DNA of 64,000 bases from Clostridia bacterium (GTDB lineage: Bacteria; Bacillota; DSM-521; Neomoorellales; SLTJ01), in assembly GCA_024653205.1 (NCBI GenBank), contig JANLFO010000004.1, forward strand, positions 1 through 64,000, written 5' to 3'. Shown here one piece after another: positions 13,995 to 64,000 of this stretch; the first letter of the stretch is position 1; each line of letters starts with the position of its first letter. Under the pieces are notes generated by a model. It was not told where the DNA came from and did not search any database. It saw only the letters and a list, made by a program, of their open reading frames with translations. A program made the position numbers and the translations under genes.

Positions 13995-14202
13995 CCGGCG
14001 GGCCTGGTTTCACCGCGTACCTGAAGCGTGCCGGGCACCGAACTCGGTGAGGGCGAGGGCGGAGGCGGGCCGGAGGCCACGGACGGCCGAAGCGGCGGGG
14101 CGCCACGGACGGCGCCTCCGCCGGGAGCCCGCCGGAGCGCGACGCTCGAGCCGTAGTTCGGTCGGCTAAGCGACCGGTACGAGGGGGAACCAGGCCCGCC
14201 GG
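13995..14202 (+). repeat. Interspersed structured repeat, type A
   Basis: A 208 bp element in the 526 bp gene-free stretch before pth. A perfect 15 bp terminal stem (CCGGCGGGCCTGGTT with its complement) encloses an inner stem ACCGAACT/AGTTCGGT and a central GCGGGC/GCCCGC stem. That stem caps two hairpins, GGCC and GGCGCC, each with loop ACGGAC. Copies at 27111, 34250, 38012 and 47151 keep the pairing while changing the bases. 13837-13994 shows only a weak hairpin around 13919-13940 and no gene. Confidence 0.85.
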
Positions 14203-16223: not shown

Positions 16224-16300
16224 ACAAAGAAGGACGGTCGGAATTAGGATGACGCCAGACCCTCGGGTACCGGTCTGGTGGATCCCCACTTTGCCTTGCC

Positions 16301-16370
16301 GGCAGTCCTGGTTCCCCCTCGTACCGGTCGACCCGACACGCTTTAGGTACTCGGCGAAACCAGGACTGCC
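16301..16370 (-). repeat. Short deleted copy of the structured repeat (type A ends only)
   Basis: 70 bp with arms GGCAGTCCTGGTT and AACCAGGACTGCC. It keeps the outer blocks found in the copy at 27111-27314 (GTACCGGTCG on one side, CACGCTTTAGGTAC on the other) but lacks the whole middle from the inner ACCGAACT stem inward. The deletion joins the two sides close to the inner-stem border. Confidence 0.75.
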
Positions 16371-16404
16371 GCCAGGGTAAAGGATACGTCAGGCGGGCCG
16401 TTCC

Positions 16405-27045: not shown

Positions 27046-27110
27046 AGACCGTAGCCGCCAAAGTACCAGCGGGCCAGCACTGCGGTGCAAACGTGGTGCG
27101 CCTGCGGACG

Positions 27111-27314
27111 GGCAGTCCTGGTTCCCCCTTGTACCGGTCGCTTAGCCGACCGAACTAGGGTTCGATCTTCGCGCTCCGGCGGGCTCCCGGCGGAGGCGCC
27201 GTCCGTGGCGCCCCGCCGCTTCGGCCGTCCTTGGCCTCCGGCCCGCCTCCACGCTCGCTCTCACCCAGTTCGGTGCCCGGCACGCTTTAGGTACACGGTG
27301 GAACCAGGACTGCC
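27111..27314 (-). repeat. Interspersed structured repeat, type A
   Basis: A 204 bp copy in reverse orientation relative to 13995-14202. Terminal arms GGCAGTCCTGGTT and AACCAGGACTGCC pair perfectly. The inner stem ACCGAACT/AGTTCGGT and two central hairpins are kept, with loops GTCCGT and GTCCTT as read on the plus strand. It fills most of the 381 bp between the SIMPL gene and the S1-domain gene. Confidence 0.85.
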
Positions 27315-27354
27315 GCTCCGGAGGACATGAGAGGCGGCTACCCGTTGCGCCGTA

Positions 27355-37970: not shown

Positions 37971-38011
37971 GCAAAACCCGGACCCGGGACCAAACGGTGT
38001 GCTTTTTGGTA

Positions 38012-38224
38012 CCCCGGCAGCCCTGGTTTCACCGAGAACCTAAAGTCTCGCCGGGCACCGAACTTGGCGAGAGCAAGGGTGGAGGCGGGCCGGAGGCCAT
38101 GGACGGCCGAAGCGGCGGGGCGCCACGGACGGCGCCTCCGCCGGGAGCCCGCCGGAGCCCGAAGCTCGAGCCCTAGTTCGGTCGACGAAGCGACCGGTAC
38201 GAGGGGGAACCAGGGCTGCCGGGG
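38012..38224 (+). repeat. Interspersed structured repeat, type A
   Basis: A 213 bp copy with arms CCCCGGCAGCCCTGGTT and AACCAGGGCTGCCGGGG, inner stem ACCGAACT/AGTTCGGT, central GGCGGGC/GCCCGCC stem and two hairpins with loops ATGGAC and ACGGAC. It occupies the middle of the 471 bp gap before ftsE. Confidence 0.85.
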
Positions 38225-38312
38225 AACAGGTCGGGATCGCCGGGAAGCGGAACGAGTGGACGTGCCCGCCGGGGCGCGACCCGGGAGATCTCGGGGCGCC
38301 GGCGGGTTGTCA

Positions 38313-49999: not shown

Positions 50000-50914
50000 T
50001 CAGCGCTCCTGCGTGGTCTCCCTACCGATTTCCTCCTGAAGGAACATGCTCAAAAGGCGCCCCTCCTCGCTTTGTCGGGACCGGGGCCGAACCACCTGGT
50101 AGGCCAGCAAGGGGAGATCTACGGGTGGGCGCAACTCTACCAGGTGGCCATGGCGGATGTCCTCTTCCACGGCGATACGGTGGGTCACCGCCGCCACTTT
50201 GGAGGTCTTCGCCGTGGCCTTCACCGCCTCCGGGTGGCTGGCCTCCAGGAGCACCTTGGGCCTTACCCCCAGGCCGTCAAAATAGGCGTCGATTACCCGG
50301 CGAACGAAGGTGTTCTCGATGGGGAGCACCAGGGGAAGCTGCTCCCAGTGGGGGGACAGGAAGGGATCGGAATCGGCCAGGGCCGGGTTGGCCACCACGG
50401 TGAGCGCCTGGGTGAACACGAAGTCCTGGATCACGTCCGGAACCGCCACCTGGGTAGGGAACACGGCGACGTCGTACCGGTGCTGGCGGAACGCGGTCAT
50501 CATAGTGGCGGCGTCGGTTTCCACTATCACCCGGACGGATAGGCTGGGAAAGCGGGCCTGAAACTCGCCCAAAAGCTTGGGCAGGAGGTAGATGCCTATG
50601 GTGGTATTGCTGGCTACGGTAATGGTGCGGCCGCCCGCCTCGCCCACGGCGTTCAGGTAGCGGAGATCGGTAGTGAGCTGCTCCAGGCTGTTCAGCACTT
50701 TGGTGGCTACCTGGTACACCAGTTTTCCGGCGCCAGTCAGCTCTACTCCTTTGGTGCCGCGGTGGCGCGCGAACAGCGGATGGCCTAGCTCTTCTTCAAG
50801 AGCCTTAATCTGGGCGCTTATGGCGGGCCGCGAGATGTGCAGGTTATCGGCGGCGCGGCCAAAACTCGCAGTGCGCACAATTTCGCAGAATACGGCCAGC
50901 TGGTGCAGGGTCAT
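50000..50914 (-). CDS. LysR-family transcriptional regulator 1
   Basis: A 304-residue regulator. Residues 1-62 form the winged helix (LAVFCEIVRTASFGRAADNL, ISRPAISAQIKALEEELGHP), and residues about 90-295 the two-lobed effector domain. It is divergent from a second LysR gene and its promoter region contains the two-part motif shared by the island's promoters, so it is the best candidate to control the pathway. ATG at the complement of 50912-50914. The effector is unknown. 49894-49999 contains nothing I recognise. Confidence 0.9.
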   Translation of the reverse strand: MTLHQLAVFCEIVRTASFGRAADNLHISRPAISAQIKALEEELGHPLFARHRGTKGVELTGAGKLVYQVATKVLNSLEQLTTDLRYLNAVGEAGGRTITVASNTTIGIYLLPKLLGEFQARFPSLSVRVIVETDAATMMTAFRQHRYDVAVFPTQVAVPDVIQDFVFTQALTVVANPALADSDPFLSPHWEQLPLVLPIENTFVRRVIDAYFDGLGVRPKVLLEASHPEAVKATAKTSKVAAVTHRIAVEEDIRHGHLVELRPPVDLPLLAYQVVRPRSRQSEEGRLLSMFLQEEIGRETTQER

Positions 50915-50932: not shown

Positions 50933-50999
50933 GGTAACTTTTTGGTTACCGATCCCATTATAACAAATTGCAATAGACGCTTCAATATTCCTGAATTAA
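50933..50999 (+). promoter_or_regulatory. Shared two-part operator, copy 1 (between the LysR genes)
   Basis: GGTAAC-N6-GTTACC (50933-50950), a perfect 6 bp inverted repeat, followed 39 bp later (start to start) by AATAGACGC (50972-50980) and then TTCAATATTCCTG. The same layout recurs at 52086 and 63219. Here the AATAGACGC block lies within the spacer of the LysR-1 promoter, fitting autoregulation. Confidence 0.7.
50957..50985 (-). promoter_or_regulatory. Sigma-A promoter of LysR regulator 1
   Basis: On the minus strand TTGAAG (50980-50985), 17 bp, TATAAT (50957-50962). The predicted transcription start falls at the GGTAAC-N6-GTTACC dyad, so a bound regulator would block it. Confidence 0.65.
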
Positions 51000-51142: not shown

Positions 51143-52072
51143 GTGACGCTTCACCAATTCCTGGTCTTTCTCACCGTGGTGGACGAAGGTAGTTTCTCGA
51201 ATGCCGCCCGTAGGCTGAACATATCCCAGGCTGCTGTGAGCGCCCAAATCAAGGCCCTGGAGAAGGAATTGGGGCAGGTTCTGCTGGCAAGGAGGGCGGG
51301 GGTAGGTAAACCCAAGTTGACTCCGGCGGGAAGGCTGACCTACAAGGCGGCGGCCACAGTGGTCAGGGTAGTCGGTGGTCTGGCAACTCAGCTCAAGGGA
51401 CTGGAGACCGGAATAACGAAGGAACTGCCGGGAGAGCGGATTGCAGTGGCGGCCGATCCCTTGGTGGGGCTGTATCTCCTTCCTCGGCTGGGCGCGGAGT
51501 TCCGCCGTTGTCATCCGGGCGTAGAGGTGCGGGTGCTGACCGATACCGACCTGGAGGCCGTCTGGGGAGTCTTGCGCCGGGGAGGATGCGACCTGGGCGT
51601 GGTTCCCGCGGACCTTTCTACCCCTGGCTGTGCCGTGGAAGGCAGCCTTAGCCTAGAGCTTGTGGCCGTGGCCAACCCGCGGTTGGTGGGCTCCGAAGGG
51701 GTCCTTGATTGGTCGCGCCTGCCCATGGTGTTGCCGTCCCGGGGAACCGCGCTGCGACAGATACTGGACGCCTACTTGGCTTCGCTGGGCATAGAGCCCC
51801 GCCTGGTGGCCGAGGTAAGTCACCCCGAAGACGCACGCAAGGCGGTGAAAGGCCGCGCCGCGGCCACGGTAACGCATGCTGTAGTAGTGGAGGAGGAACT
51901 GGCGCTAGGGGGCCTGGTTAAAGTGGAGCCTCCCGCTCCTCTTCCTGCGTACGAATACAAAGTGGTACGCCCCCGCACCCGTTTTCGAGTGCCCGTCCAG
52001 GAGTTCTGCCGGTTTCTCCGTGAGCGTTTAGGGGGCCGGTCCCTGGGGAAGGGCCCCGATACGGAAGGCTGA
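51143..52072 (+). CDS. LysR-family transcriptional regulator 2
   Basis: A 309-residue regulator with winged helix at residues 1-62 (LVFLTVVDEGSFSNAARRLN, ISQAAVSAQIKALEKELGQV) and effector domain beyond 90. It resembles regulator 1 in N-terminus and effector-domain layout, so the two are probably diverged paralogues. GTG 51143 follows AAAGAGGTGG. It reads toward the mutase operon, whose operator begins 14 bases after its stop codon. Two LysR genes for one island suggests two inputs or heteromeric control. Confidence 0.9.
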   Translation: MTLHQFLVFLTVVDEGSFSNAARRLNISQAAVSAQIKALEKELGQVLLARRAGVGKPKLTPAGRLTYKAAATVVRVVGGLATQLKGLETGITKELPGERIAVAADPLVGLYLLPRLGAEFRRCHPGVEVRVLTDTDLEAVWGVLRRGGCDLGVVPADLSTPGCAVEGSLSLELVAVANPRLVGSEGVLDWSRLPMVLPSRGTALRQILDAYLASLGIEPRLVAEVSHPEDARKAVKGRAAATVTHAVVVEEELALGGLVKVEPPAPLPAYEYKVVRPRTRFRVPVQEFCRFLRERLGGRSLGKGPDTEG

Positions 52073-52085
52073 CGGCAGCGCAAAA

Positions 52086-52150
52086 GGTAAGCAATCGGTT
52101 ACTACTTCGTTAGAGCAAGCTGTAATAGACGCCTTAATATTCTTGCATTA
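52086..52150 (+). promoter_or_regulatory. Shared two-part operator, copy 2 (mutase operon)
   Basis: GGTAAG-N6-GTTACT (52086-52103), then AATAGACGC at 52124-52132 (38 bp start to start) followed by CTTAATATTCTTG. It matches copy 1 in both halves and in the flanking AATATTC-TTG/CTG block. It ends about 85 bases before ATG 52236; TAATAT (52135-52140) may be an activator-dependent -10. Confidence 0.7.
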
Positions 52151-52235: not shown

Positions 52236-53708
52236 ATGGAAGTAAGGGTAAGGCAAAAGCGCATCGACGAAGATGAATTCTTGAAGATGCGGGAAAGTGT
52301 GCTCTCCTTGTGGCCTACCGGCAAGGAAGTGGACCTGGACGAGGCGGTGGAGTACCAGAAGTCCCTTCCGGACAGCAAGCGGTTTCACAAGGTGCTGGAG
52401 CGGCTGCGGGCGCAAGGAAAGACGGTGGTTTTCCCCCGGGCGGGCACGCCGCTGGTGGAAGACGAAATCGAGCTGGTTCAGGCCCTGGTGGCCTCCGGGG
52501 TGCCGCTCATACCTGTGACCACCGACAGCTACACCCGGAACCTGCAGTTTGAGAAAGTGGAGCAGGCCCTGGAAGAGAGCAAGAAGCGGGGCAAGCCCAT
52601 GCTCAACGGTTACCCCATTATTAACCACGGGGTTAAGACTACACGCAGGGTGGTAGGGGCTTGCGACGGCGCCTTCAATCCCCGCTGCTCCATGAAGGCA
52701 AACAGCCTGGTGGCGGAAATCGCCTTCGCCTCGGGCATGACCGCCATGCCCTCTAGCTTTTTCGCCTGGTTCGGCAGCTACGAGAAAAAGGCCACCATCG
52801 AGGAGTGTATCCAGACCGCTCAGTACGCCTTCCGCCTCATGGGCTATTACGCCGACCGGGGGGTAATCATCTCTACCGACTGCCACGGCTGGCTACCCAA
52901 CGGCGTTTTCCCCATAAGCGTGAACGCCGCCTGCCTGATAATCGAGGCCCTGGTGGCGGCGGAGCAGGGGGCAAAAAGCGTTATCCCCCTGGTGGAGTGT
53001 CACGGTTACCTGCCCCAGGACCTGGCCTGGATCCGGGCCGTGCCGCGACTGCTTAGAACCTATCTGGACCGGCTCGGGTACACTGAGGTAATGATCCCGG
53101 GCACCATCGCCTGCCAGGTGCCCTTGTACGCCGTGCCCCAGGACCTGGGCATGGCCTTCGGCTATCTCACCTACACGGCCCTGGTAGGCGCCCTGGCCAA
53201 AGTGGAAGCGGTTTCGGTGCGGACGGTGGACGAGGGGGTGGGCGTGCCCACCAAGGAGGCCCACGAGAGCAGCTACCGGGCGGCCAACTGGATATTCGAG
53301 GTGGTGCGGACCCAGAAGCTGGCCGATCTAGACGACGAGGACATCCGGCTGGAAGAAAAGATCACCGAGGCCGAGATCACCGCCATCCTGGACCGGGTGC
53401 TGGACCTGGGCGACGGGGACATAGTGGTGGGCGCGATAAAGGCGGTAGAGGCCGGGGTCTTAGACTCGCCCTTCCCGCTGAACGTGCATGCCAGGGACCG
53501 GGTGCTGGGCGTGCGAGACCTACGCGGCGCCTGCCGTTACGTGGAGTTCGGCAACCTGCCGATCCCGGAGGAGATCAAGGACTTTCACCGGCAGAAGGTG
53601 GCGGAAAGGGAGCGGGCGGAGGGTAGGAAGATGGACTTTTACGTAGCCGTAGAAGACTTCTGGGCCTTCAGCCAGGGAAGGATCCTCGGGGTACCGGCCC
53701 GCAAGTAG
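52236..53708 (+). CDS. Glutamate-mutase-like epsilon (catalytic) subunit with altered amino-group site
   Basis: A 490-residue TIM-barrel B12 mutase subunit. LWPTGKEVDLDEAVEY, PRAGTPLVEDEIEL, LNGYPIINHGVK and GVPTKEAHESS match methylaspartate mutase GlmE. Aligned by eye to my recollection of the Clostridium cochlearium sequence, the arginines that clamp both substrate carboxylates are kept (R68, R101, R150 for R66, R100, R149), but E171, which contacts the amino group, is P172, and Y177 is W178; Y181 is Y182. So a dicarboxylate other than glutamate is likely. ATG 52236 follows CAGGGAGGA; the longer frame from 52143 overlaps the operator. Partners mutS and mutL follow. Confidence 0.85.
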   Translation: MEVRVRQKRIDEDEFLKMRESVLSLWPTGKEVDLDEAVEYQKSLPDSKRFHKVLERLRAQGKTVVFPRAGTPLVEDEIELVQALVASGVPLIPVTTDSYTRNLQFEKVEQALEESKKRGKPMLNGYPIINHGVKTTRRVVGACDGAFNPRCSMKANSLVAEIAFASGMTAMPSSFFAWFGSYEKKATIEECIQTAQYAFRLMGYYADRGVIISTDCHGWLPNGVFPISVNAACLIIEALVAAEQGAKSVIPLVECHGYLPQDLAWIRAVPRLLRTYLDRLGYTEVMIPGTIACQVPLYAVPQDLGMAFGYLTYTALVGALAKVEAVSVRTVDEGVGVPTKEAHESSYRAANWIFEVVRTQKLADLDDEDIRLEEKITEAEITAILDRVLDLGDGDIVVGAIKAVEAGVLDSPFPLNVHARDRVLGVRDLRGACRYVEFGNLPIPEEIKDFHRQKVAERERAEGRKMDFYVAVEDFWAFSQGRILGVPARK

Positions 53709-53735
53709 CCCCGGCGGTAGGGGAGGTGCGCAACG

Positions 53736-54161
53736 GTGAAAGATCGGCCCACGGTAGTGACCGGCACGGTAGGAGTAGACGCCCACGTAATCGGAACCAA
53801 GATCCTCTCCCGCGCTCTTAGGGAGGCCGGGTTCAACGTGGTGGAACTGGGGGCCCAGACTCCGCCGGAGGAGTTCATCAAGGCCGCCCAGGAGACGGAC
53901 GCCGACGCCATCCTGATGAGTTCCCTGTACGGCATGGCCGAACTCGACCTCCAGGGTTTTAAGGAGAAGTGCATAGAGGCGGGGCTGGAGGATGTGATTC
54001 TCTACATCGGCGGCATCCTGGGGATTTCCCGGCACGACTTCAAGGAAGACGAAGAAAAGTTCAAAAAGCTGGGCTTCGACCGGGTTTACCCGCCGGACGT
54101 GGACATCCAGGCGGCCATAGAAGACCTGCGCCGGGATCTCAAGGCCAGGGGCAAGCTTTAA
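53736..54161 (+). CDS. Glutamate-mutase-like sigma subunit (B12-binding)
   Basis: A 141-residue cobalamin-binding Rossmann protein. The base-off/His-on motif D15-A-H17-V-I-G20, SSLYG (62-66) and the GG near residue 92 that contacts the nucleotide tail are all present, as is the DRVYPP segment shared with GlmS. It supplies adenosylcobalamin to the 52236 protein at their interface. GTG 53736 follows GGGGAGGTG, 27 bases after the catalytic subunit. Overall it looks closer to genuine GlmS than the catalytic subunit does to GlmE. Confidence 0.9.
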   Translation: MKDRPTVVTGTVGVDAHVIGTKILSRALREAGFNVVELGAQTPPEEFIKAAQETDADAILMSSLYGMAELDLQGFKEKCIEAGLEDVILYIGGILGISRHDFKEDEEKFKKLGFDRVYPPDVDIQAAIEDLRRDLKARGKL

Positions 54162-54174
54162 AGGGGAGCCCGGT

Positions 54175-55545
54175 ATGGGCGAAGTTCGGGTATTCATCGA
54201 CTTCGGCAGCACCTTCACCAAGGTAGTGGTCTTTGACCTGAGCAAAGAAGAGCTGCTGGCGCGGGTTCAGGTTCCCTCTACCGTGGACCGGGACATCACC
54301 ATCGGGCTGGAGGAGGCCTGGAGACTGGTCCGCGCCGAGGTGGGCCTGGGCGAAGAAGAGCTAAGGCAGGCCGTGGCCTGCAGCAGCGCCGCCGGAGGCC
54401 TGCGGGTGGCCTGCGTGGGTCTGGTCCCGGAATACACCACCGAGGCCGCCCGCCTGGCCGCCCTGGGCGCCGGAGCGAAGATCGTGGGCGTGTACTCCTA
54501 CGAGCTTTCGGAGGCGGAAGCGGCGGAGGTGGAGGAGCTGGTTCCGGACATCGTCCTCCTGACCGGGGGCACGGACGGCGGCAACCGGAAGGTCATCCTG
54601 CACAACGCCCGCCTCCTGGCCCGGACAGGCGACCGGATAAAGAATATCGTGGTGGCGGGCAACAAGGCGGCCCACGACGAGGTCAGGCAGATCCTCGGCG
54701 GGGCGGGAAAAAACGTCATTCTCACCCGCAACGTGATGCCGGAATTCGGCCGGCTGGAGGTAGAGCCCTGTAACCGCACCATCCGGGAACTCTTCTTAAG
54801 CCGCATTACCGAGGCCAAGGGTATAGCCCGGGTGCGAAGCCTGATCCGGGGCGTGGTCATGCCCACCCCGGCGGCGGTGCTGGAGGCGGCCCGGCTTCTG
54901 GCGGAGGGCGCGGGCGACTGCCCCGGCCTGGGGGAACTGCTGGTAGTGGATGTGGGCGGCGCCACCACCGACGTCTACTCTGTGGCCAGGGGGCTGCCCA
55001 CCAACCCGGCGGTGGTTACCGTGGGTCTGGCCGAGCCCTACGTCAAGCGCACCGTAGAAGGCGACCTCGGAATGGTGCATAATCTCGAAACCTTAAGGGA
55101 AATCGTGGGCGCGGGGGAAGAGCCGGAGGGCTTTGCCGAGGCTCTCGGCGATCTGGCGGCCCGGAGCGGCATTCCCCGGACGGAGAGAGAGGTAGAGACT
55201 CAGATAATGCTGGCCCGCGCCGCGGTAAAGACGGCGGTGGACCGCCACGCTGGCCGGCTGGAGGCGCGGGTTTCGCCTCAGGGCGAGTTTCTGCTGCAGC
55301 GGGGCAAGGACCTAACCGGGGTGGGCTGGGTGGTGGGCACCGGCGGTCCGGTGGCCTTCTCGGCGGCACCCCGGCGGGTGCTGGAAGGGGCGCTCTTCCG
55401 GCCGGAGGAGCCCATGCTGCTCAAGCCCAAGGCCCCCCGGTTCTTGGTGGACCACCACTATATAATGTTCGCCCTGGGGTTGCTGGCTCAGGCCGAACCG
55501 CTCAAGGCGGCGCGGCTGATGCGAAAGTACCTGGTGCCGATATAG
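54175..55545 (+). CDS. MutL/GlmL-like ASKHA ATPase, mutase chaperone
   Basis: A 456-residue protein of the MutL family found between the S and E genes of glutamate mutase operons. ASKHA motifs are present: FIDFGSTFTKVVVFD (7-21), LLTGGTDGGNRKVI (about 127) and VVDVGGATTDVYSVA (about 258). The family probably repairs or reloads inactive mutase, by analogy with reactivases; no direct proof is known to me. It starts 13 bases after the sigma subunit. Gene order here is E-S-L, not the usual S-L-E. Confidence 0.9.
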   Translation: MGEVRVFIDFGSTFTKVVVFDLSKEELLARVQVPSTVDRDITIGLEEAWRLVRAEVGLGEEELRQAVACSSAAGGLRVACVGLVPEYTTEAARLAALGAGAKIVGVYSYELSEAEAAEVEELVPDIVLLTGGTDGGNRKVILHNARLLARTGDRIKNIVVAGNKAAHDEVRQILGGAGKNVILTRNVMPEFGRLEVEPCNRTIRELFLSRITEAKGIARVRSLIRGVVMPTPAAVLEAARLLAEGAGDCPGLGELLVVDVGGATTDVYSVARGLPTNPAVVTVGLAEPYVKRTVEGDLGMVHNLETLREIVGAGEEPEGFAEALGDLAARSGIPRTEREVETQIMLARAAVKTAVDRHAGRLEARVSPQGEFLLQRGKDLTGVGWVVGTGGPVAFSAAPRRVLEGALFRPEEPMLLKPKAPRFLVDHHYIMFALGLLAQAEPLKAARLMRKYLVPI

Positions 55546-55592
55546 CGCGTTTCGGCGGTGGGAATACCTGGTACGCCAAAGGGGGCGCGAGA

Positions 55593-57764
55593 ATGGGCTT
55601 CTACGTAGGAGTGGACGTAGGCGGGACCTTCACCGACGGCGTGGCCCTGGATGATGCCGGAAGGCTCTACCACGCCAAGTCTCCTACCACCCGGGAGGAC
55701 CCAGTGGCGGGCATGCTCAACACTCTGGCGGTACTGGCCGCCGAGTGCGGCCTGAGCCGCGAGGAGTTTCTAGCCTCAACCGTTCGGCTCAGCCTGGGCA
55801 CCACCATCGGCACCAACCTCATCGTGGAGCGCAAGGGCGCCCGCACCGGGCTCCTGGCTACCGCCGGTCATGGCGACGCCATCCTTATGATGCGGGGCTC
55901 GGGCCGCACGGTGGGGCTGGAGCCGGAAATGTACTTTCACCCCCAGACCACGGACAAGCCGGAGCCGCTGGTACCGCGTAACCTCATCCGGGAGATCAAC
56001 GAGCGCATCGACTACGCCGGCCGGGTAATAGTGCCTCTGAACCCGGAGGAAGTAGAGGCGGCGGTGCGGAGCCTGGTCGAAGAGGGCGGAGTAACCGCCA
56101 TCGCCATCGCTTTCCTATGGTCCTTCAAGAACCCGGTACACGAGCGGCAGGCGGCGGAAATCGTCCGCCGCGTAGCCCCGCAGGTGTACGTGTCCTGCTC
56201 GCACGAGGTGGCACCGCGGCTGGGCGAGTACGAGCGCACGGTGGCCACGGTCATCAATTCCTACATTGACCCGCCCTCGGCCGCCTACCTGGCCGGCGCT
56301 GCCGAGCGCCTGAAACAAGCCGGCCTGAAATCCCCGCCGCTGGTGATGCAGGTTTCGGGCGGGGTGGTGCCGGCAGAGGCGGCGGCCTCGGTTCCCCTTA
56401 CCTCCTTGGGATCGGGTCCGGTGGGCGGCCTAATGGGGGCGGCGGCCCTGGCGCGGCGGCTGGGCCACGACTACGTGGTGGCCACCGACATGGGCGGCAC
56501 CTCCTTCGACGTGGGCCTGATCGTCCAGGGCGAGCCGCTGGGCACCGAGGACAACGTAATCAACCGGTACCGCTACCGCTTGGCCCAGTTGCAGGTGACC
56601 TCTATTGCCTGCGGGGGCGGAAGCATAGCCCGGGTGGACCCTTACAGCCGTTCCCTGCGCGTGGGGCCGGAGAGTGCGGGCTCCAACCCCGGGCCGGTCT
56701 GCTACGGCCGGGGCGGGAGCGAGCCCACGGTCACCGACGCCGACCTGGTGGTGGGCCTGCTCTCGGCGGAGAGCTTCCTGGGAGGGCGCATGCCCTTGGA
56801 CAAGGATGCCGCCGTGCGGGCCCTGGCCGCCCTGGGCCGGCAGGTGGGACTGGAGCCGGAAGAAGCTGCCGCCGGCATCCTGCGGATAAACAACACCAAG
56901 GCGGCGGAGCTGATCCGGCAGCGGACCGTGGTTCGCGGTTACGATCCCCGCGACTTTGTAGTCTACGCCTATGGGGGTGCAGGTCCGCTGCACGCCTTCG
57001 CCTTCGCGCCGGAACTGGGGGTTAAGGAGGTAGTGATCCCCCTGGGCAACGGCGCCTCTACCCTTTCCGCCTACGGGTGCGCCACCTCGGACCTGGTGCG
57101 GGTGCTGGAGGCCGAGGAGCTGTTCTCCCATCCCTTTGACCTAGACGGGCTGAACCGGGTCTTGAGCCGCCTGGAGGCCGAGGCCCTGGCGGCCATGGCC
57201 CAAATAGGCCAGGACCCCGGGGGGGTGGAACTGGAGCGCTTCGGCCTGATGCGCTACCGGGGCCAGTGGCTGCACCACTTACTGATACACCTGCCCGGGG
57301 GATACCTGGGGCCCGACGAGGCGGACAAAGTGGTGGAAGACTTTCGCACCACCTACGACCGCCTTTACGGAAAGGGCGCGGGCCTGGTTTCCCAGGGTAT
57401 AGAAATGTTTACCGTCCGGGTGCGGGCCCGGGCGCGACTGGGCCGTCCGCTGCTGGCGGGTCGGGAGGAGACGGAGGCCGGAATACCGGAGCAGGCCCGG
57501 CGGGAATCGCGGCCGGTGCTTTGGCCGGAGAGCCTGACCTGGTTGGAAACCCAGGTGTATGACGGCAGGCTTCTCCAACCCGGTAACGAGGTGCCCGGAC
57601 CGGCGGTAGTGGAACTCCCCCATACTTCGGTTCCGGTAGCGGCCGGTCAGAAGCTGATATGCGACTCGCTGGGCAATTTGGTGTTGCGGTTGGAGGCAGA
57701 TACTATCGGCGAAGACTTCGGTATCCGCAACGAGAAGGCTGCCGGATTGGCGGGGGAGGCATAG
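55593..57764 (+). CDS. HyuA/AcxA-like subunit of an ATP-dependent carboxylase or hydantoinase
   Basis: A 723-residue ASKHA-fold protein of the hydantoinase A / acetone carboxylase beta family: VDVGGTFTDGVALDD (8-22), SLGTTIGTNLIVERKGA, TDMGGTSFDVGLI (about 303) and GGGSIARVD. It should phosphorylate the substrate or bicarbonate for the partner at 57768, three bases downstream. HyuA/HyuB pairs include 5-oxoprolinase, N-methylhydantoinase, caprolactamase and acetone/acetophenone carboxylases; the zinc ribbon on the partner favours the carboxylases. ATG 55593 lies 47 bases after the mutL-like gene. Confidence 0.88.
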   Translation: MGFYVGVDVGGTFTDGVALDDAGRLYHAKSPTTREDPVAGMLNTLAVLAAECGLSREEFLASTVRLSLGTTIGTNLIVERKGARTGLLATAGHGDAILMMRGSGRTVGLEPEMYFHPQTTDKPEPLVPRNLIREINERIDYAGRVIVPLNPEEVEAAVRSLVEEGGVTAIAIAFLWSFKNPVHERQAAEIVRRVAPQVYVSCSHEVAPRLGEYERTVATVINSYIDPPSAAYLAGAAERLKQAGLKSPPLVMQVSGGVVPAEAAASVPLTSLGSGPVGGLMGAAALARRLGHDYVVATDMGGTSFDVGLIVQGEPLGTEDNVINRYRYRLAQLQVTSIACGGGSIARVDPYSRSLRVGPESAGSNPGPVCYGRGGSEPTVTDADLVVGLLSAESFLGGRMPLDKDAAVRALAALGRQVGLEPEEAAAGILRINNTKAAELIRQRTVVRGYDPRDFVVYAYGGAGPLHAFAFAPELGVKEVVIPLGNGASTLSAYGCATSDLVRVLEAEELFSHPFDLDGLNRVLSRLEAEALAAMAQIGQDPGGVELERFGLMRYRGQWLHHLLIHLPGGYLGPDEADKVVEDFRTTYDRLYGKGAGLVSQGIEMFTVRVRARARLGRPLLAGREETEAGIPEQARRESRPVLWPESLTWLETQVYDGRLLQPGNEVPGPAVVELPHTSVPVAAGQKLICDSLGNLVLRLEADTIGEDFGIRNEKAAGLAGEA

Positions 57765-57767
57765 GGT

Positions 57768-60074
57768 ATGGGCGAGAACCCGGCTATCGTATGGGACGGA
57801 AAGGCCCGCGGCTATCTGCCGCCGGAAACCCTGCGCATTAGTCCTAGCCTGCGCCTGCACACCTCCGGGGCGCAGGAGGTGGACCCCATCACCTACGAAG
57901 TAATTCGCAACACCCTAATGGGTATTAACTTTGAGCATGGCAATACCATCCAGAAGCTAAGCATTTCTCCTATTACCATGATCACTCGCGATTTTCAATG
58001 CACTCTACTAACCGAAAGCGGGGAAGTGCTCTGCCTGGGCCCCTATCTCCTCTACCTGGGCGTAACCTTGAGCTTCGGGACCCGGTGGATACTGGAGAAC
58101 CGGAGCGCCGAACCGGGCATCGAGGAAGGCGACGTCTTTCTCTGGAACGACCCCTACGTGGGGACGGCCCACCAGCAGGACACGGCTCTGGCCGGGCCGG
58201 TGTTCTGGGAGGGAGAACTCTTCTGCTGGGTGGCTAATTGCCTCCATCTCACCGACGTGGGCGGCGCGGTCTCGGGCAGCTTCTGCGTGGGAGCCAAGAA
58301 CTTTTGGGAAGATCCACCCAGCTTCCCTCCGGTGAAGTTGGTGGAGCGGGGGAAGCTGCGGGTGGACGTGGAGGACGCCTTCGTGCGCCAGTCCCGGCTC
58401 CCCAACGCGGTGCGGATGGACCTGCACGCCGCCCTGGCGGGAATTAATGTCGCCCGGGAGCGGGTGCTCCAACTGGTGCGGCGCTACGGGGCCGCCACGG
58501 TAAAAGGGGTGATGTACCGGCTCCTGGAGGCCGCAGAACGGGCCTTCCTGGAAAAGTTGCGGCATATTCCCGACGGGAGGTGGTCGGAACGGGTATATAC
58601 CGAGGCGGCACTACCCGGCGACGAGCGGGTTTACGTGAGCCAAGTCAACATTACCAAGCAAGGCGACTACCTGGTGGCGGATAACGAGGGGACCTCGCCG
58701 CAAATAGGCTCGATCAACAACACCCTGGCCGGCTTTGCCGGCGCCGTGCTCCTGGCCCTTACCCTGATGTTAGGTTATGACCTGGGCGGCGCTTGCGGGG
58801 GTCTCTACCGGCGGGTAAAGTTCCGGCCGGTGCCGGGTACCATTACCTGCGCCGACTTCCCGGCGGCGGTAAGTCCTGCCGGCCAGTACAACATGCCCAT
58901 GGTGGCCTCTACCGCCGTGGGAGCGGTGGCCAAGATGGTGGCCTGCGCCGACGATCCCGAGCTGAGGGCCAAAGCCCTTACCATGGTGGACGTCCACGCC
59001 GTGGGCGGAATCATCTTTAACGGAACCGACCGGCGCGGGGACTACTTCGTGGCCATGAACCCGCTGCTGGCCATTGGCGCCTTCCCGGCTTCGCCGGCTC
59101 GGGACGGGATAGACACGGGAGGAAACTACCTGGTACCCGGGATGGAGGCGGCCAACGTGGAGGAGAACGAGCTGGCCTGGCCGGTGCTCACCCTATACCG
59201 CCGTCAGAGCCCGGCCGGCGCCGCGGGCGCGGGCCGCTTCCGGGGCGGCCTGGGAGTGGAAGAGGCCATAGTGTTGCACGGGACGGAAGCGGTGGAAATG
59301 GCCATCTATATGAACGAGAGCTTCGCCAAAGGTCAGGGCCTCCTGGGCGGCAACCCCAGCGGCCGGGGTTTCTTCCGGGTGAAGCGCAACAGCAACGTTT
59401 GGGAGCTGCTGGCCGACGGGCGAGTGTCGCGCAGTCTGGGGGAAATTCAAGGGGAGGAGGTGCCAATCAGCTTCAAGGGACCGGCCATTATTCTGCGCCC
59501 CGGCGACGTCTGGAGCAACAACTTCCCCAACACCCCGGGCGTGGGCGATCCCCTGGACCGGGACCCGTATCGGGTGGCCCGGGACGTGGCGGAGGGGAAG
59601 TTAACACCCGAAGAGGCCAGGGGGGTCTACGGGGTGGTGATGGCCTCACCCTCCGAGCCCGACCTGGAAGCTACCGCCTCCTACCGGGAGGAAGCTCGCA
59701 GGAGGCGGGTGGATGGCGCGGGCAACGAGGAGAAGGGAGGTGGTCAAACGGCGCAACCGGGAACCGGGTACGCAGTGGCCGGCGGCCTCCTTAGGCTTGA
59801 GGACGGCCCGGCGGGCCCCGTCTACCGCTGCCGGTGCGGCCGTATCCTGGGACCGGCCAAGGCGAACTACAAGGATTACTGTCGGGTGAACGAGATTCCC
59901 GCTTCCGACATCGGTCCGGCATACGCCTCCTCGGACCCGGGAGCGGGCACGGCGATGCGCTTCAGGGAGTTCTTCTGTCCGAGTTGCGGAACCCGTTTGG
60001 CCACAGAGCTGGCGCGGGCTGGGGACCCGTACCTTTGGGATATCGCTCTTGACTGTTCCAATTTCGCCGATTAG
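57768..60074 (+). CDS. HyuB/AcxB-like subunit fused to an acetone-carboxylase-gamma-like zinc ribbon
   Basis: A 768-residue protein. Residues 1-640 are a hydantoinase B / acetone carboxylase alpha domain (DPITYEVIRNTLMGINFEHG, LWNDPYVGTAHQQD, FRGGLGVEEAI). A Gly/Glu-rich linker (about 641-668) leads to a C-terminal 100-residue domain with C688, C690, C705, C737 and C740 in a CxC...CPxCG ribbon, like the small zinc subunit (AcxC) of acetone and acetophenone carboxylases. The linker DNA holds GGGAGGTGG (59735-59743) and, four bases later in frame, ACG 59748, which looks like the lost start of a once separate gene. ATP-dependent carboxylation is the favoured role; hydantoinase activity is not excluded. 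Confidence 0.82.
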   Translation: MGENPAIVWDGKARGYLPPETLRISPSLRLHTSGAQEVDPITYEVIRNTLMGINFEHGNTIQKLSISPITMITRDFQCTLLTESGEVLCLGPYLLYLGVTLSFGTRWILENRSAEPGIEEGDVFLWNDPYVGTAHQQDTALAGPVFWEGELFCWVANCLHLTDVGGAVSGSFCVGAKNFWEDPPSFPPVKLVERGKLRVDVEDAFVRQSRLPNAVRMDLHAALAGINVARERVLQLVRRYGAATVKGVMYRLLEAAERAFLEKLRHIPDGRWSERVYTEAALPGDERVYVSQVNITKQGDYLVADNEGTSPQIGSINNTLAGFAGAVLLALTLMLGYDLGGACGGLYRRVKFRPVPGTITCADFPAAVSPAGQYNMPMVASTAVGAVAKMVACADDPELRAKALTMVDVHAVGGIIFNGTDRRGDYFVAMNPLLAIGAFPASPARDGIDTGGNYLVPGMEAANVEENELAWPVLTLYRRQSPAGAAGAGRFRGGLGVEEAIVLHGTEAVEMAIYMNESFAKGQGLLGGNPSGRGFFRVKRNSNVWELLADGRVSRSLGEIQGEEVPISFKGPAIILRPGDVWSNNFPNTPGVGDPLDRDPYRVARDVAEGKLTPEEARGVYGVVMASPSEPDLEATASYREEARRRRVDGAGNEEKGGGQTAQPGTGYAVAGGLLRLEDGPAGPVYRCRCGRILGPAKANYKDYCRVNEIPASDIGPAYASSDPGAGTAMRFREFFCPSCGTRLATELARAGDPYLWDIALDCSNFAD

Positions 60075-60118
60075 GGAAATCCGGTAGCACCTAAACGCCT
60101 GGAGAGGAGGACTTGAGC

Positions 60119-61210
60119 ATGAAAGGTCATCGCCAACTATCTGGGGTAATCCTGGCCGGGGTGCTGGCTGCCTGTGTCGGCCTGTGGAGCTGCGGCAAGG
60201 CGCCCAGCTCTCCCCAGGGAACCTCCGGCTCCCAGCAGCCCACGGAAACCAAACCCATCGAGCTAAAGATGGTAATGTTTGCCCCGGATAAGCCGCCGGG
60301 GAACACCTGGTCGCGGCAGTTTGCCCAACGGGTCGAGGAGTTGTCTAACGGTCGGCTTAAGATCAACCTGATCGGCGGCCCGGAAGCCATCCCCGCCGAC
60401 GAGGCCCCGGCGGCGGTCCAGCGGGGCGTGGTGGATATGGCCGAGGCTCTGGGCTACGCGCTTAACAAGTTGGTCCCGGGATTTGACTCCGTGCATATGG
60501 CCGAGTACACTCCTGCGGAGCTACGGGAGCGGGGGCTGACCGCCTACCTGCAGGAGCAGTTCGCCGCTCAGGGGCTTTACTACCTGGGAGTATGTAAGCC
60601 GGCCGAGCCCCATGTAGTAAACATCTTTGGCTTCCGCAAACCGGTAACCAAGCTGGCGGACTTCAAGGGGCTGAAGATCGCCACCGACGGAGCGGCGGCG
60701 GCGGCCTTCGTCAAGGAATTGGGGGCCACGCCCGTGGCCATACCTCTTACGGAGTACTTCACCGCTATGGAGCGGGGCACCATAGACGGGTATACGTGCG
60801 GGATTCCGCCGGTCATAGATTTTGGTCTGGGGCCGGTCACCAAGTTCATATTGGAGGAGTCCATCTTTTCTTCCGGAGGCATGGTCTACGTAGTGAACCT
60901 CAATACTTGGAACAAACTTCCTGCGGATCTACAAGAGGTGCTGACCCAGGCGTCGATCGAGCACGAAAAGAACACCAAGCTTTGGGATGATATAGTCGCC
61001 CAAGCCAAGGCCGAGCTGGTCAAGCAGGGAGTTCAGTTCGGTAAACTTCCGCCGGACGAGGCCTTGGCTTATTACGAGGCCTTCCGCAAGACCATAATGG
61101 AGCAGGACTACCAGATCGGCAAGCGAGAGATCGTATCCAAGATCCACGAGCTCATTCTCAACCCCGATTTCTACCGGCTGAAACTCGACTACTACCAGAA
61201 GAGACAGTAA
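60119..61210 (+). CDS. TRAP transporter solute-binding lipoprotein (DctP family)
   Basis: A 363-residue extracytoplasmic receptor with a lipobox LWSC (C25). The DctP fold shows in FAQRVEELSNGRLKINLIGG, DFKGLKIATDG and EYFTAMERGTIDGY. In most family members the GLKIR arginine pairs with the substrate carboxylate; here the position is A188 (KIAT), so ligand recognition probably differs. ATG 60119 follows GGAGAGGAGG at ideal spacing; TTG 60113 is rejected. It lies 44 bases after the carboxylase gene. Confidence 0.9.
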   Translation: MKGHRQLSGVILAGVLAACVGLWSCGKAPSSPQGTSGSQQPTETKPIELKMVMFAPDKPPGNTWSRQFAQRVEELSNGRLKINLIGGPEAIPADEAPAAVQRGVVDMAEALGYALNKLVPGFDSVHMAEYTPAELRERGLTAYLQEQFAAQGLYYLGVCKPAEPHVVNIFGFRKPVTKLADFKGLKIATDGAAAAAFVKELGATPVAIPLTEYFTAMERGTIDGYTCGIPPVIDFGLGPVTKFILEESIFSSGGMVYVVNLNTWNKLPADLQEVLTQASIEHEKNTKLWDDIVAQAKAELVKQGVQFGKLPPDEALAYYEAFRKTIMEQDYQIGKREIVSKIHELILNPDFYRLKLDYYQKRQ

Positions 61211-61260
61211 CCGGGACCACCAGTCTCTCTTGCTCAGGCCGGCAAGTCCGGTAGGGAGGC

Positions 61261-61292
61261 GGTCCGGCGGGCGCCCTAGTCGGGGCCGGACC
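61261..61292 (+). other. Hairpin between the receptor and membrane genes of the TRAP operon
   Basis: GGTCCGGC (61261-61268) and GCCGGACC (61285-61292) form a perfect stem in the 139 bp gap between dctP and dctQ. Without a T-run it is not a classic terminator; such hairpins often protect the receptor mRNA and give an excess of binding protein. Confidence 0.5.
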
Positions 61293-61349
61293 GGGCCGCC
61301 GATCCGACCGGACGAGAGCGGTGATTGAAAGCGGGGAGGAGAGGATAAG

Positions 61350-61883
61350 TTGGAGCCTCGGCAGCGCTTTTGGGTTGCGTTCGAGCGACTGGTAGACGCT
61401 TTCCTGGGGCTGGCGGCTCTGCTGGTGCTGTTCGATGCCCTGGCAGTTTCTGCCGACGTCCTGGTGCGCTACGGCGCCGACAAGAGCTGGGCAGGACTGT
61501 TTGAAATCACCGAGTACAGCCTGGTATGGATGACCTTCCTGGGGCTGGCCTGGGTAATGAGGCAGGACGGCCACGTGAGCATGGAGCTCCTGGTCCGCCG
61601 GTTAAATCCCCGGCCCCAGGCTGGTCTACGTACCTTTAGCCTCGTGGTGGGGGCAGCGGTGCTGGCGGTGGCGAGCTGGCTGAGCCTACTGGTAGTAGTC
61701 CAGGATTTCCGGGCGGCCACGCCCATGGTGAGCATTCTGCGGCCGCTCCGGTGGCCGATAGAGGCGGTAATTCCTGCCGGCCTGGTGCTGCTATTGGTGG
61801 AAACGCTGAGGAAACTGTACGGTCACCTGCGGGCGCAAGGAAACAACCCGCCCGAAGGAGAAGCCGCGACCGGGGGGCGCTAA
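61350..61883 (+). CDS. TRAP transporter small membrane subunit (DctQ family)
   Basis: A 177-residue protein with four membrane helices (about 16-40, 50-72, 92-115, 135-155). EYSLVWMTFLGLAWVMRQDGHVSME (overlapping runs, about 52-76) is the DctQ hallmark. It forms the membrane complex with DctM and docks the receptor. TTG 61350 follows GGGGAGGAGAGG. The next gene starts four bases after its stop. Confidence 0.9.
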   Translation: MEPRQRFWVAFERLVDAFLGLAALLVLFDALAVSADVLVRYGADKSWAGLFEITEYSLVWMTFLGLAWVMRQDGHVSMELLVRRLNPRPQAGLRTFSLVVGAAVLAVASWLSLLVVVQDFRAATPMVSILRPLRWPIEAVIPAGLVLLLVETLRKLYGHLRAQGNNPPEGEAATGGR

Positions 61884-61887
61884 AGCC

Positions 61888-63204
61888 GTGGATTGGCTGT
61901 TCGTTCTGGTATTCAGCTTCGTCTGCCTTTTCCTATGCATGTTAACCGGCATGCCCATAGCCCTGAGCTTCCTGCTCACCTGCATGATCGGCGGCTACCT
62001 GTGGTGGGGCGGGCTTAGCGGCCTTGCTCAACTGGCCACCGGGCTTTATAGCCCCGTAGCCAGCTTCACCCTGCTGCCGGTGCCCATGTTCATTCTCATG
62101 GGCGCGCTGATCTTCGAATCCGGGATGGGTACCCGGGTGGTTGACGTCCTGGACCGCCTGTTGGGCAAGCGGGTTCCGGTACGGTTGAGCGTACTGGCGG
62201 TAGGAGCCGGGGCGATACTAGGGGCCCTGATCGGGATCAGCGGCGCCTCGGCCAGTATACTGGGCAAGACCCTGCTGCCGGAGATGCTCAGGCGCGGTTA
62301 CCGGGGAGAAACGAGCCTCGGGCCCATAGTGGCCAGCGGCACTCTGGCCACCATGATACCTCCTTCGGCCCTGGGCATCCTGGTGGGGGCCATGAGCGGG
62401 GTCTCCATCAGCGGGGTCCTGCTGGGAATTATTCTTCCCGGTCTACTCCTGGCCGGCCTCTATCTGGCCTACCTCTTGGTGCGGTACCGGAAAGCGCCGG
62501 TATCCGCGCCTGACGAGCGATCGGACGTTTCCTTTTCCGAGAAGGTGGTAGTGTTCGTGCGCGACCTTCTCCCCCTGGCGCTCATCATGTTCGCGGTGGT
62601 GGGAACCATCTTCATCGGCGTCGCTACTCCCTCGGAGGCGGCGGCCCTAGGGGTGGTGGCCTGCCTATTACTGGCGGCAGCCTACAGGCGCCTTAACTGG
62701 AAGGTTCTGTGGAACTCCCTGGTGAGCACCGTACACATCACCAGCATGGTCTTCTTCATCGTGGTAGGAGCGGTATGTTTCAGCCGGATCCTGGCCAGCA
62801 GCGGGGCGCTTCGCGGTTTGGTAGATCTGGCCACCTCGCTCAGCCTTCCTCCCATGTTGATCGTGGCCGCCACCCTGGCGGTAGTGTTCATTTTGGGCTG
62901 CTTCATGGACGCGGCCAGCATTACCATGGTGACCGTGCCGCTGTTCACGCCCCTGGTTTCGGCCCTAGGCGTGGACCTGCTGTGGTATGCGGTGGTTTAC
63001 TTGCTGGTGGTGCAGCTCGGGCTCATAACCCCGCCCTTCGGTCTGGACGTCTACACGGTTAAGGCGGTGGCCCCGCCGGAGGTCACGCTTACCGAAGCCT
63101 TTCGGGCCGCCATGTCCTTCCTGGTGGTGGGTCTGGTGGTGGCGGCCTTGCTGTTCGCCTTTCCCAGGCTGGCCCTGCTCTTGCCGGCGATGGCGAAGGC
63201 GTAG
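61888..63204 (+). CDS. TRAP transporter large membrane subunit (DctM family)
   Basis: A 438-residue protein with about twelve hydrophobic segments; GALIFESGMGTRVVDVLDRL, ISGASASILGKTLLPEMLRRGY, SGTLATMIPPSALGILVGAM and ITPPFGLDVYTVKAVAP are DctM signatures that build the sodium-coupled elevator. GTG 61888. It ends the operon that begins at 52236; the next operator begins 14 bases after its stop codon. Confidence 0.93.
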   Translation: MDWLFVLVFSFVCLFLCMLTGMPIALSFLLTCMIGGYLWWGGLSGLAQLATGLYSPVASFTLLPVPMFILMGALIFESGMGTRVVDVLDRLLGKRVPVRLSVLAVGAGAILGALIGISGASASILGKTLLPEMLRRGYRGETSLGPIVASGTLATMIPPSALGILVGAMSGVSISGVLLGIILPGLLLAGLYLAYLLVRYRKAPVSAPDERSDVSFSEKVVVFVRDLLPLALIMFAVVGTIFIGVATPSEAAALGVVACLLLAAAYRRLNWKVLWNSLVSTVHITSMVFFIVVGAVCFSRILASSGALRGLVDLATSLSLPPMLIVAATLAVVFILGCFMDAASITMVTVPLFTPLVSALGVDLLWYAVVYLLVVQLGLITPPFGLDVYTVKAVAPPEVTLTEAFRAAMSFLVVGLVVAALLFAFPRLALLLPAMAKA

Positions 63205-63218
63205 TCGGCCGGCTCGGT

Positions 63219-63270
63219 GGTAACCGATTGGTTAACGCGCCGTTACGGGGAATTGTAATGGACGCTCTCA
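63219..63270 (+). promoter_or_regulatory. Shared two-part operator, copy 3 (glycyl-radical enzyme)
   Basis: GGTAAC-N6-GTTAAC (63219-63236), then AATGGACGC at 63257-63265, 38 bp start to start as in copy 2. The downstream AATATTC block is not kept. It lies about 100 bases before the enzyme's start, as in copy 2. Confidence 0.65.
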
Positions 63271-63296
63271 TGCCCTGGGGCTAAGATTAGTCTAGG

Positions 63297-63320
63297 GGGT
63301 TTCCCAAAACTGTGAAACCC
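63297..63320 (+). other. Leader hairpin of the glycyl-radical gene
   Basis: GGGTTTC (63297-63303) and GAAACCC (63314-63320) form a 7 bp stem with a 10-base loop, 30 bases before the ribosome site. No T-run follows, so it may stabilise the mRNA or be a regulator site. Confidence 0.4.
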
Positions 63321-63369
63321 TCGCTACAGTAAGTTTGTGGTACTACCGCGAGGGGAGGTAATGGGCGAG

Positions 63370-64000
63370 ATGACAGCGGTAGCGCTAGATACTGCGGCCA
63401 GAGGGAACGTTACAGGTACGCCCCAAGTTAACGGGGAAGAAATCAGAAGACTAAGCGTCGTCACGAACCGGGTCAAGAAGCTCAAGCAGGAGTGGGAAGA
63501 GGCCAGGCCCATCATTTACGTGGACGATACCCTGCTCTTTACCAAGTCTTGGAAGGAGACGGAGGGGCTCCCGGTCGACCTGCGCTGGGCTAAGGCCTTC
63601 GAGAAGAGGCTCAAAGAGTGCCCCATTACCATCCGGGATGGAGAGTTGATCGTGGGCTCGCTCACCAAGTTCGTTAAGGGAGTAAACCTCCTGGCGGCCA
63701 TGAAGCCGCGCGAGGTCCTCGACATGCTTAACCGGGGACTGTTTGACCGCAAGCTCAGCGACACCGTCCCGGCGGAGATCTCGGAGGAGGACGCCCGGCG
63801 GCTCAGGGAAGATTGCGAGTACTGGGTGGCCAACATGCCCCCCAGCTACATCAACGCCGCTCTGAAGGAAACCCTGGGCGAGGATCACTTTGACCTCTTG
63901 ATGGACCGGGCCATGATTTTTGAGGGCCGGGGGGTAAGGGTGGAGCCGGACCGGGGCCTGTTCGAGAACTGGGGCGCCATGGGCGGAGGCACCCCCCAGC
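63370..64000 (+). CDS. Glycyl-radical enzyme (pyruvate formate-lyase-like), N-terminal part, cut by the window
   Basis: About 210 residues of an open frame running off the end. The N-terminus fits the diol-dehydratase/decarboxylase/X-succinate synthase class: RRLSVVTNRVKKLKQEWEEA, FTKSWKETEGLPVDLRWAKA, ITIRDGELIVGSLTKFVKG, YWVANMPPSYINAALKE. The usual ERAxLxTE block reads VDDTLLFTKSW, a divergence from common subfamilies. The catalytic Cys-loop and C-terminal glycyl loop lie outside the window, so the reaction cannot be assigned. ATG 63370 is best spaced from GAGGGGAGG; ATG 63361 is in frame. Its operator ties it to the mutase operon. Confidence 0.88.
   Translation, partial: MTAVALDTAARGNVTGTPQVNGEEIRRLSVVTNRVKKLKQEWEEARPIIYVDDTLLFTKSWKETEGLPVDLRWAKAFEKRLKECPITIRDGELIVGSLTKFVKGVNLLAAMKPREVLDMLNRGLFDRKLSDTVPAEISEEDARRLREDCEYWVANMPPSYINAALKETLGEDHFDLLMDRAMIFEGRGVRVEPDRGLFENWGAMGGGTPQ

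Follow-up and report, generated by a model that had tools for sequence, protein, structure and literature searches.

What does a locus do that places an adenosylcobalamin (AdoCbl) mutase, an ATP-dependent carboxylase-like enzyme, a TRAP importer and a glycyl-radical enzyme (GRE) side by side? The locus lies at the end of the window analysed here, which covers positions 1 to 64000 of contig JANLFO010000004.1 (165241 bases) of a Clostridia bacterium, whose genome of 2.46 Mb in 51 contigs is 98.8% complete. A sequence-only reading of the window had tentatively proposed that the GRE, the carboxylase and the mutase act in that order in an undescribed anaerobic pathway. The gene set is best described as known enzyme families in a new combination, with two uncharacterised subfamilies at the centre. 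We consider it fairly probable (about 0.6) that it forms a single regulon by which the cell would use a small organic acid anaerobically, and in which free acids rather than coenzyme A (CoA) esters would be handled by two different radical enzymes. A full-text literature search, with most subscription papers outside its reach, turned up no description of this gene combination, in agreement with the earlier statement that no characterised pathway is known to have it.

A common operator and a common inheritance

Are the mutase and the GRE under common control? The mutase operon opens with a MutE-like catalytic subunit (52236..53708, plus strand), and the GRE gene begins some 11 kb downstream on the same strand. 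From an 11-mer common to both operon fronts, a two-part operator was derived, GGTAA-N6-GGTTA followed after 18-19 bases by yTGyAATrGACGC. Its copies stand, all on the plus strand, between two LysR genes (50933..50980, GGTAACTTTTTGGTTA...TTGCAATAGACGC), before the mutase operon (52086..52132, GGTAAGCAATCGGTTA...CTGTAATAGACGC) and before the GRE (63219..63265, GGTAACCGATTGGTTA...TTGTAATGGACGC). Searched against the entire genome, GGTTA-N17..21-nTGnAATnGACG matches at exactly three places, all at this locus, and the backwards control gave one match; the GGTAA half, though outside the search pattern, is present at all three sites. Since the operator occurs three times genome-wide and only here, there is good evidence from sequence that the mutase and GRE operons are co-regulated as one predicted regulon, and the earlier statement that both stand behind the same operator holds.

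Is the combination kept in other genomes? Among about 85,000 species genomes, a pattern scan picked out six loci whose MutE is 52-72% identical to that of the window, and a scan of 399 genomes of the same phylum added one (G109, 70%), its other full-length matches all being at most 41% identical. The mutase clade is rare, because scans of 297 and 400 genomes from two other groups added no further members. Six related metagenome-assembled genomes (MAGs) of Bacillota and Actinomycetota carry a close mutase ortholog (62-71% identity). All six also have an ortholog of the GRE (63-75%; other GREs there 43% or less) and of an MmgE/PrpD protein encoded beyond the window (58-69%; full-length paralogs 34% or less), so that GRE, mutase and MmgE/PrpD are present in seven of seven genomes, the window genome included. 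The order GRE-activase-MutE-MutS-MutL is contiguous in G410, and G109 has GRE-activase-MutE-MutS-MmgE-HyuA-HyuB-AcxC-SDR-DctP-DctQM-AOR. The arrangement varies in the other four (G405, G406, G407 and G408); in G405 the GRE is in two parts, at the ends of separate contigs that are probably adjacent. Joint inheritance of the two radical enzymes is suggested by their trees, which agree on the main pairs: both recover G408 with G109 and G405 with G406, and both group the window with G410, where in the mutase tree the long-branched sequence of a further genome, G409, also falls.

Could the mutase/carboxylase/TRAP operon and the GRE operon instead be two adjacent, independent modules for different substrates? 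They are separate transcription units in the window genome, and G409 and a further genome, G401, each have one enzyme without the other. However, the operator is common to both, the genes are contiguous in G410 and G109, and the GRE and mutase trees match, which makes this an unlikely explanation.

Which genes then belong to the core? It is made up of GRE, mutase and MmgE/PrpD together with oxidoreductases. The relatives have a short-chain dehydrogenase/reductase (SDR) and, where enough of the locus is available to judge, an aldehyde:ferredoxin oxidoreductase (AOR) or, in G407, an aldehyde dehydrogenase (ALDH); the window genome has zinc alcohol dehydrogenases and AORs. The importer is exchangeable and outside the core: the TRAP importer of the window shares only 22-29% identity with those of G408, G109 and G407, and MFS or ABC importer genes adjoin some other copies of the gene set. 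The sequence-only reading had defined the system by four parts, GRE, mutase, carboxylase and TRAP importer, and had expected its genes to co-occur. The co-occurrence stands for GRE with mutase (7/7) and does not extend to the carboxylase-like pair HyuAB, which accompanies GRE, mutase and MmgE in 5/7 genomes. The four-part definition has to be given up, as HyuAB is not universal, the importer can be exchanged, and the MmgE/PrpD protein, the alcohol dehydrogenases and the AORs, all beyond the window, had been left out. Past position 64000 a radical-SAM activase and CoA enzymes had been expected. The activase is there; CoA enzymes are outside the core, an AMP-forming ligase being seen in a single operon, that of G109.

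The two radical enzymes

What might the mutase act on? Aligned to the E subunit of glutamate mutase, whose structure is solved, all eight sequences of the clade have Arg where that enzyme has Arg66, Arg100 and Arg149, and Tyr181 is also kept. The position of Glu171 is Pro in seven sequences and Gly in the eighth (L027), and the pocket has Trp for Tyr177 and His for Phe216. From glutamate mutase structures we take the three arginines to be the claw that holds the two carboxylates of the substrate, and Glu171 to contact its amino group. The two-carboxylate clamp that had been proposed is thereby found in all orthologs, and these residues suggest that the substrate is likely a dicarboxylate without an alpha-amino group. 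A tree of 37 sequences separates the clade with 100/100 support, and the branch leading to it measures 1.4 changes per site.

The mutase step of nicotinate fermentation also has an unaminated dicarboxylate as substrate, 2-methyleneglutarate, and its branched product is then hydrated. Is the locus a variant of that pathway? If so, a molybdenum hydroxylase and reductions would open the ring, the mutase would be a 2-methyleneglutarate mutase yielding 3-methylitaconate, the MmgE/PrpD protein would replace dimethylmaleate hydratase, and a lyase of the PEP-mutase family would cleave dimethylmalate. The clamp suits such a substrate, one dehydration is known to be carried out by either MmgE/PrpD or aconitase types, subunits of xanthine-dehydrogenase type are encoded near the gene set in the window contig, G109 and G408, and there is a PEP-mutase-family open reading frame (ORF) at contig position 89521. 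But this ORF is outside the conserved set, the known pathway needs no GRE, and the window set has both a GRE and a carboxylase. What is more, no PrpF-family 3-methylitaconate isomerase (PF04303) was found in any of eight genomes, two control genomes being positive; on this absence the nicotinate-type pathway was rejected as improbable.

Is the mutase simply that of the methylaspartate pathway, a glutamate mutase whose neighbours have nothing to do with it? It shares with GlmES and GlmL the MutE/MutS/MutL set, the three-arginine claw and the aligned Tyr181, and its MutE is 39-41% identical to canonical E subunits. MutS (53736..54161, plus strand; NF002612, 199 bits against a cut-off of 110) and MutL (54175..55545, plus strand; NF040745, the GlmL equivalog, 534 bits against 475) exceed their curated cut-offs, and three relatives (L101, L062 and L138) lie narrowly over the glutamate-mutase cut-off of 390 bits (TIGR01503), the scores being 391.9, 399.5 and 391.4 bits. 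The window protein remains narrowly under it (379 bits; 468 bits to PF06368), and the pocket argues against membership, because Glu171, Tyr177 and Phe216 are replaced. By tblastn, no methylaspartate ammonia-lyase was found in 22 loci of this clade and genome, while the enzyme was found beside each of three canonical glutamate mutases. With pocket, tree position and neighbours all different, we rejected this explanation as very improbable. The cut-off itself is an annotation trap, as clade members just above it would be automatically named methylaspartate mutase.

The genome has other genes of this kind. On contig C25 (locus L029, 3337-9233) a second MutE (39% identity) is accompanied by its own MutS, an SDR, a TRAP importer and two proteins of the URO-D family. 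The residue aligned with Arg66 is Gly and that aligned with Glu171 is Ala, so that by sequence this MutE seems to represent a third subfamily of mutases, one whose arginine claw is broken. An in-frame TAG considered in this copy was dismissed: the open frame of 518 aa exceeds the protein, and the TAG is probably just the stop codon of the gene, reached where the alignment ends. A related catabolic island on contig C26 (L030 and L058) has a MutL with no MutE nearby, two MmgE/PrpD paralogs, an AOR, two subunits of 2-hydroxyglutaryl-CoA-dehydratase type, a flavoenzyme of the old yellow enzyme (OYE) type, a cupin-like ORF, TRAP importers and LysR genes.

Is the GRE any closer to a characterised enzyme? 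Its first part (63337..64000, plus strand; PF02901 and PF01228) is cut by the window edge, and the complete protein of 868 aa ends at 65943 on the contig; translation more likely starts at an ATG near 63361. It has the PFL-like and glycine-radical domains, an invariant Cys506, the motif RVGGYSA and a radical-SAM activase on the contig. Nevertheless it falls below every curated function cut-off, with 520 bits against 678 at best, for the broad PFL2 subfamily (PFL2-3), and at most 497 bits for models of defined enzymes, whose cut-offs are 1000 or more; two orthologs that were scored are likewise under the curated cut-offs. The domains, the catalytic Cys loop and the activase are shared with the dehydratases and lyases GldH, HypD, CutC, HpsG and IslA, but the loop, ASGCL[AG]Y[NH]L[DE] across the orthologs, has no Glu two residues after the catalytic Cys, whereas the C-x-E motif is present in the aligned GldH, HypD and IslA. 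In a tree with BssA, GldH, HypD and IslA as references the GRE forms its own clade at 100/100, whose neighbours are three GREs of G409 and G410, also without the Glu. The complete GRE matches no characterised function, which supports this part of the sequence-only reading. On these sequence comparisons, GRE and mutase are both placed outside characterised subfamilies. An AlphaFold model of the GRE from five sequences had a mean pLDDT of 44 and was unusable. More GREs without C-x-E are found in G409 and G410 (L073, L074, L076, L080 and L081), some beside a cupin-like ORF like the one near the window's genes or beside an AOR; three of these form the sister group of the window GRE.

That the GRE is an X-succinate synthase joining a hydrocarbon or similar compound to fumarate, with the mutase rearranging the free alkylsuccinate, was rejected as having very little chance of being right: a GRE with a carbon-skeleton mutase does recall alkylsuccinate pathways, the fold and the missing dehydratase Glu are shared with benzylsuccinate and alkylsuccinate synthases, and G109 and G408 carry true benzylsuccinate-synthase-like GREs elsewhere, but the window GRE is outside that clade (100/100), its Cys loop is unlike the CMSPG loop that benzylsuccinate synthases have, the Arg508 position is also missing, and no small ORF of BssB/BssC type was seen next to it.

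Other genes of the locus

In a profile search, all genes named in the sequence-only reading, namely the complete mutase set, the HyuA/HyuB-AcxC pair, the TRAP importer and the GRE, proved to be intact ORFs with strong family matches at the positions given here. Upstream are the two LysR-type regulators (50000..50914, minus strand, and 51143..52072, plus strand), each with PF00126 and PF03466. Following MutL on the plus strand come the HyuA-like subunit of the carboxylase-like enzyme (55593..57764; PF05378/PF01968/PF19278), a HyuB-like subunit fused to an AcxC-like, acetone carboxylase gamma domain (57768..60074; PF02538 and PF08882), and the TRAP solute-binding protein DctP (60113..61210; PF03480), small membrane subunit DctQ (61350..61883; PF04290) and large membrane subunit DctM (61888..63204; PF06808).

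The best solved relatives of HyuA and HyuB are the gamma and delta subunits of acetophenone carboxylase (5l9w_B and 5l9w_A), and the AcxC-like PF08882 domain occupies residues 686-766 of HyuB. A gamma subunit is held to separate acetone carboxylases from hydantoinases (PMC4959651). In these respects the pair resembles the acetone and acetophenone carboxylases (Acx, Apc), but its gamma domain is fused to HyuB, and it scores far under the Apc equivalogs (ApcC 386 against 1500, ApcD 162 against 1500) and the caprolactamase equivalog.

Beyond the window the contig continues with the MmgE/PrpD gene (66158-67579), a zinc alcohol dehydrogenase (67591-68709), AOR1 (about 68790-70657), which resembles the classical aldehyde oxidoreductase 1aor, a second zinc alcohol dehydrogenase (71147-72268), the radical-SAM GRE activase (72317-73252) and AOR2 (73308-75020). 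The MmgE/PrpD protein has both domains of the family that includes B. subtilis MmgE, cis-aconitate decarboxylase and iminodisuccinate epimerase. Its best solved match is 7bra (143 bits), and it is nearest to a B. subtilis MmgE/IRG1-like protein and iminodisuccinate epimerase; it differs in being an orthologous group of its own and in lying far under the cut-off for methylcitrate dehydratase (35 bits against 950). Downstream of AOR2 there is a small cupin-like ORF and then a lone large subunit of a xanthine-dehydrogenase-type molybdenum hydroxylase (76124-78565). Its relative in G109 (L062, 6-3777; 59%) has all three subunits and stands behind the pathway operon. Just past the pathway genes (79671-87086) is an ORF run that resembles a type III (Cmr-like) CRISPR module, its translations judged by eye. 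A tungsten/molybdenum-cofactor riboswitch was considered before MmgE and after AOR1 and was dropped, as neither place has an Rfam match. The element before MmgE (65944-66165, between the GRE and MmgE genes) is one copy of an interspersed repeat, an imperfect palindrome of roughly 100-220 bases, with further copies in the window at about 14000-14200, 16280-16390, 27110-27315 and 38010-38226.

A candidate route on free acids

How might these enzymes work together? The gene set, the common operator, the co-inheritance of GRE, mutase and MmgE, and the differences of the active sites from all characterised relatives that were compared are read directly from the sequences; from there on we infer. 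In its boldest form, which we give slightly better than even odds, our explanation is an undescribed catabolic chain on one substrate without CoA activation, built from a GRE of a new functional class, a new AdoCbl mutase for an unaminated free dicarboxylate, and MmgE/PrpD. MmgE/PrpD, AOR and glutamate-mutase-type enzymes have free acids or aldehydes as substrates. Because of this, and because the core has no CoA enzyme, a CoA-independent route is the most likely one by analogy. In the two known pathways whose mutases are comparable, the methylaspartate pathway and the nicotinate pathway (via 2-methyleneglutarate), the mutase adds a methyl branch to a dicarboxylate, and the loss of ammonia or the addition of water after the mutase prepares C-C cleavage. 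The best reading by analogy is that the present pathway would resemble the methylaspartate pathway, for an unaminated dicarboxylate.

In such a chain, the importer (TRAP in the window genome) would take up the acid, and the alcohol dehydrogenases (SDR in the relatives) and the aldehyde oxidiser (AOR, or ALDH in one relative) would set its oxidation state. The GRE would make or break a bond in the acid after hydrogen abstraction, and may either supply the dicarboxylate of the mutase or act on the mutase product. The mutase would interconvert a linear and a methyl-branched unaminated dicarboxylate, both carboxylates being held by the arginine claw; the simplest example would be a shift of the 2-hydroxyglutarate/3-methylmalate type. 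MmgE/PrpD would then hydrate, dehydrate or decarboxylate the branched acid so that it could be cleaved. Where the substrate requires it, HyuAB-AcxC probably carboxylates a ketone intermediate or a co-substrate with ATP.

Several points weigh against this explanation. The sequence of steps rests on analogy. Few genomes carry the gene set, and most of them are fragmented MAGs. G409 has a MutE of 52-54% identity without GRE and MmgE orthologs, and the GRE of G401 stands by itself on a contig of 3 kb, close MutE and MmgE being absent from that genome. A search for the carboxylase HyuAB gave no match in G405 and G407, two MAGs of unknown completeness among the seven genomes. HyuAB can therefore not be assumed to make the dicarboxylate of the mutase, and the order from GRE to carboxylase to mutase, as first proposed, is not upheld.

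Why is the locus of interest? New reactions are seldom discovered for GREs or for B12 carbon-skeleton mutases. In this locus two uncharacterised subfamilies are bound into a small, testable gene set by their operator, their synteny and their common descent, and the mutase pocket constrains the substrate, which would have two carboxylates and no amino group at the usual place.

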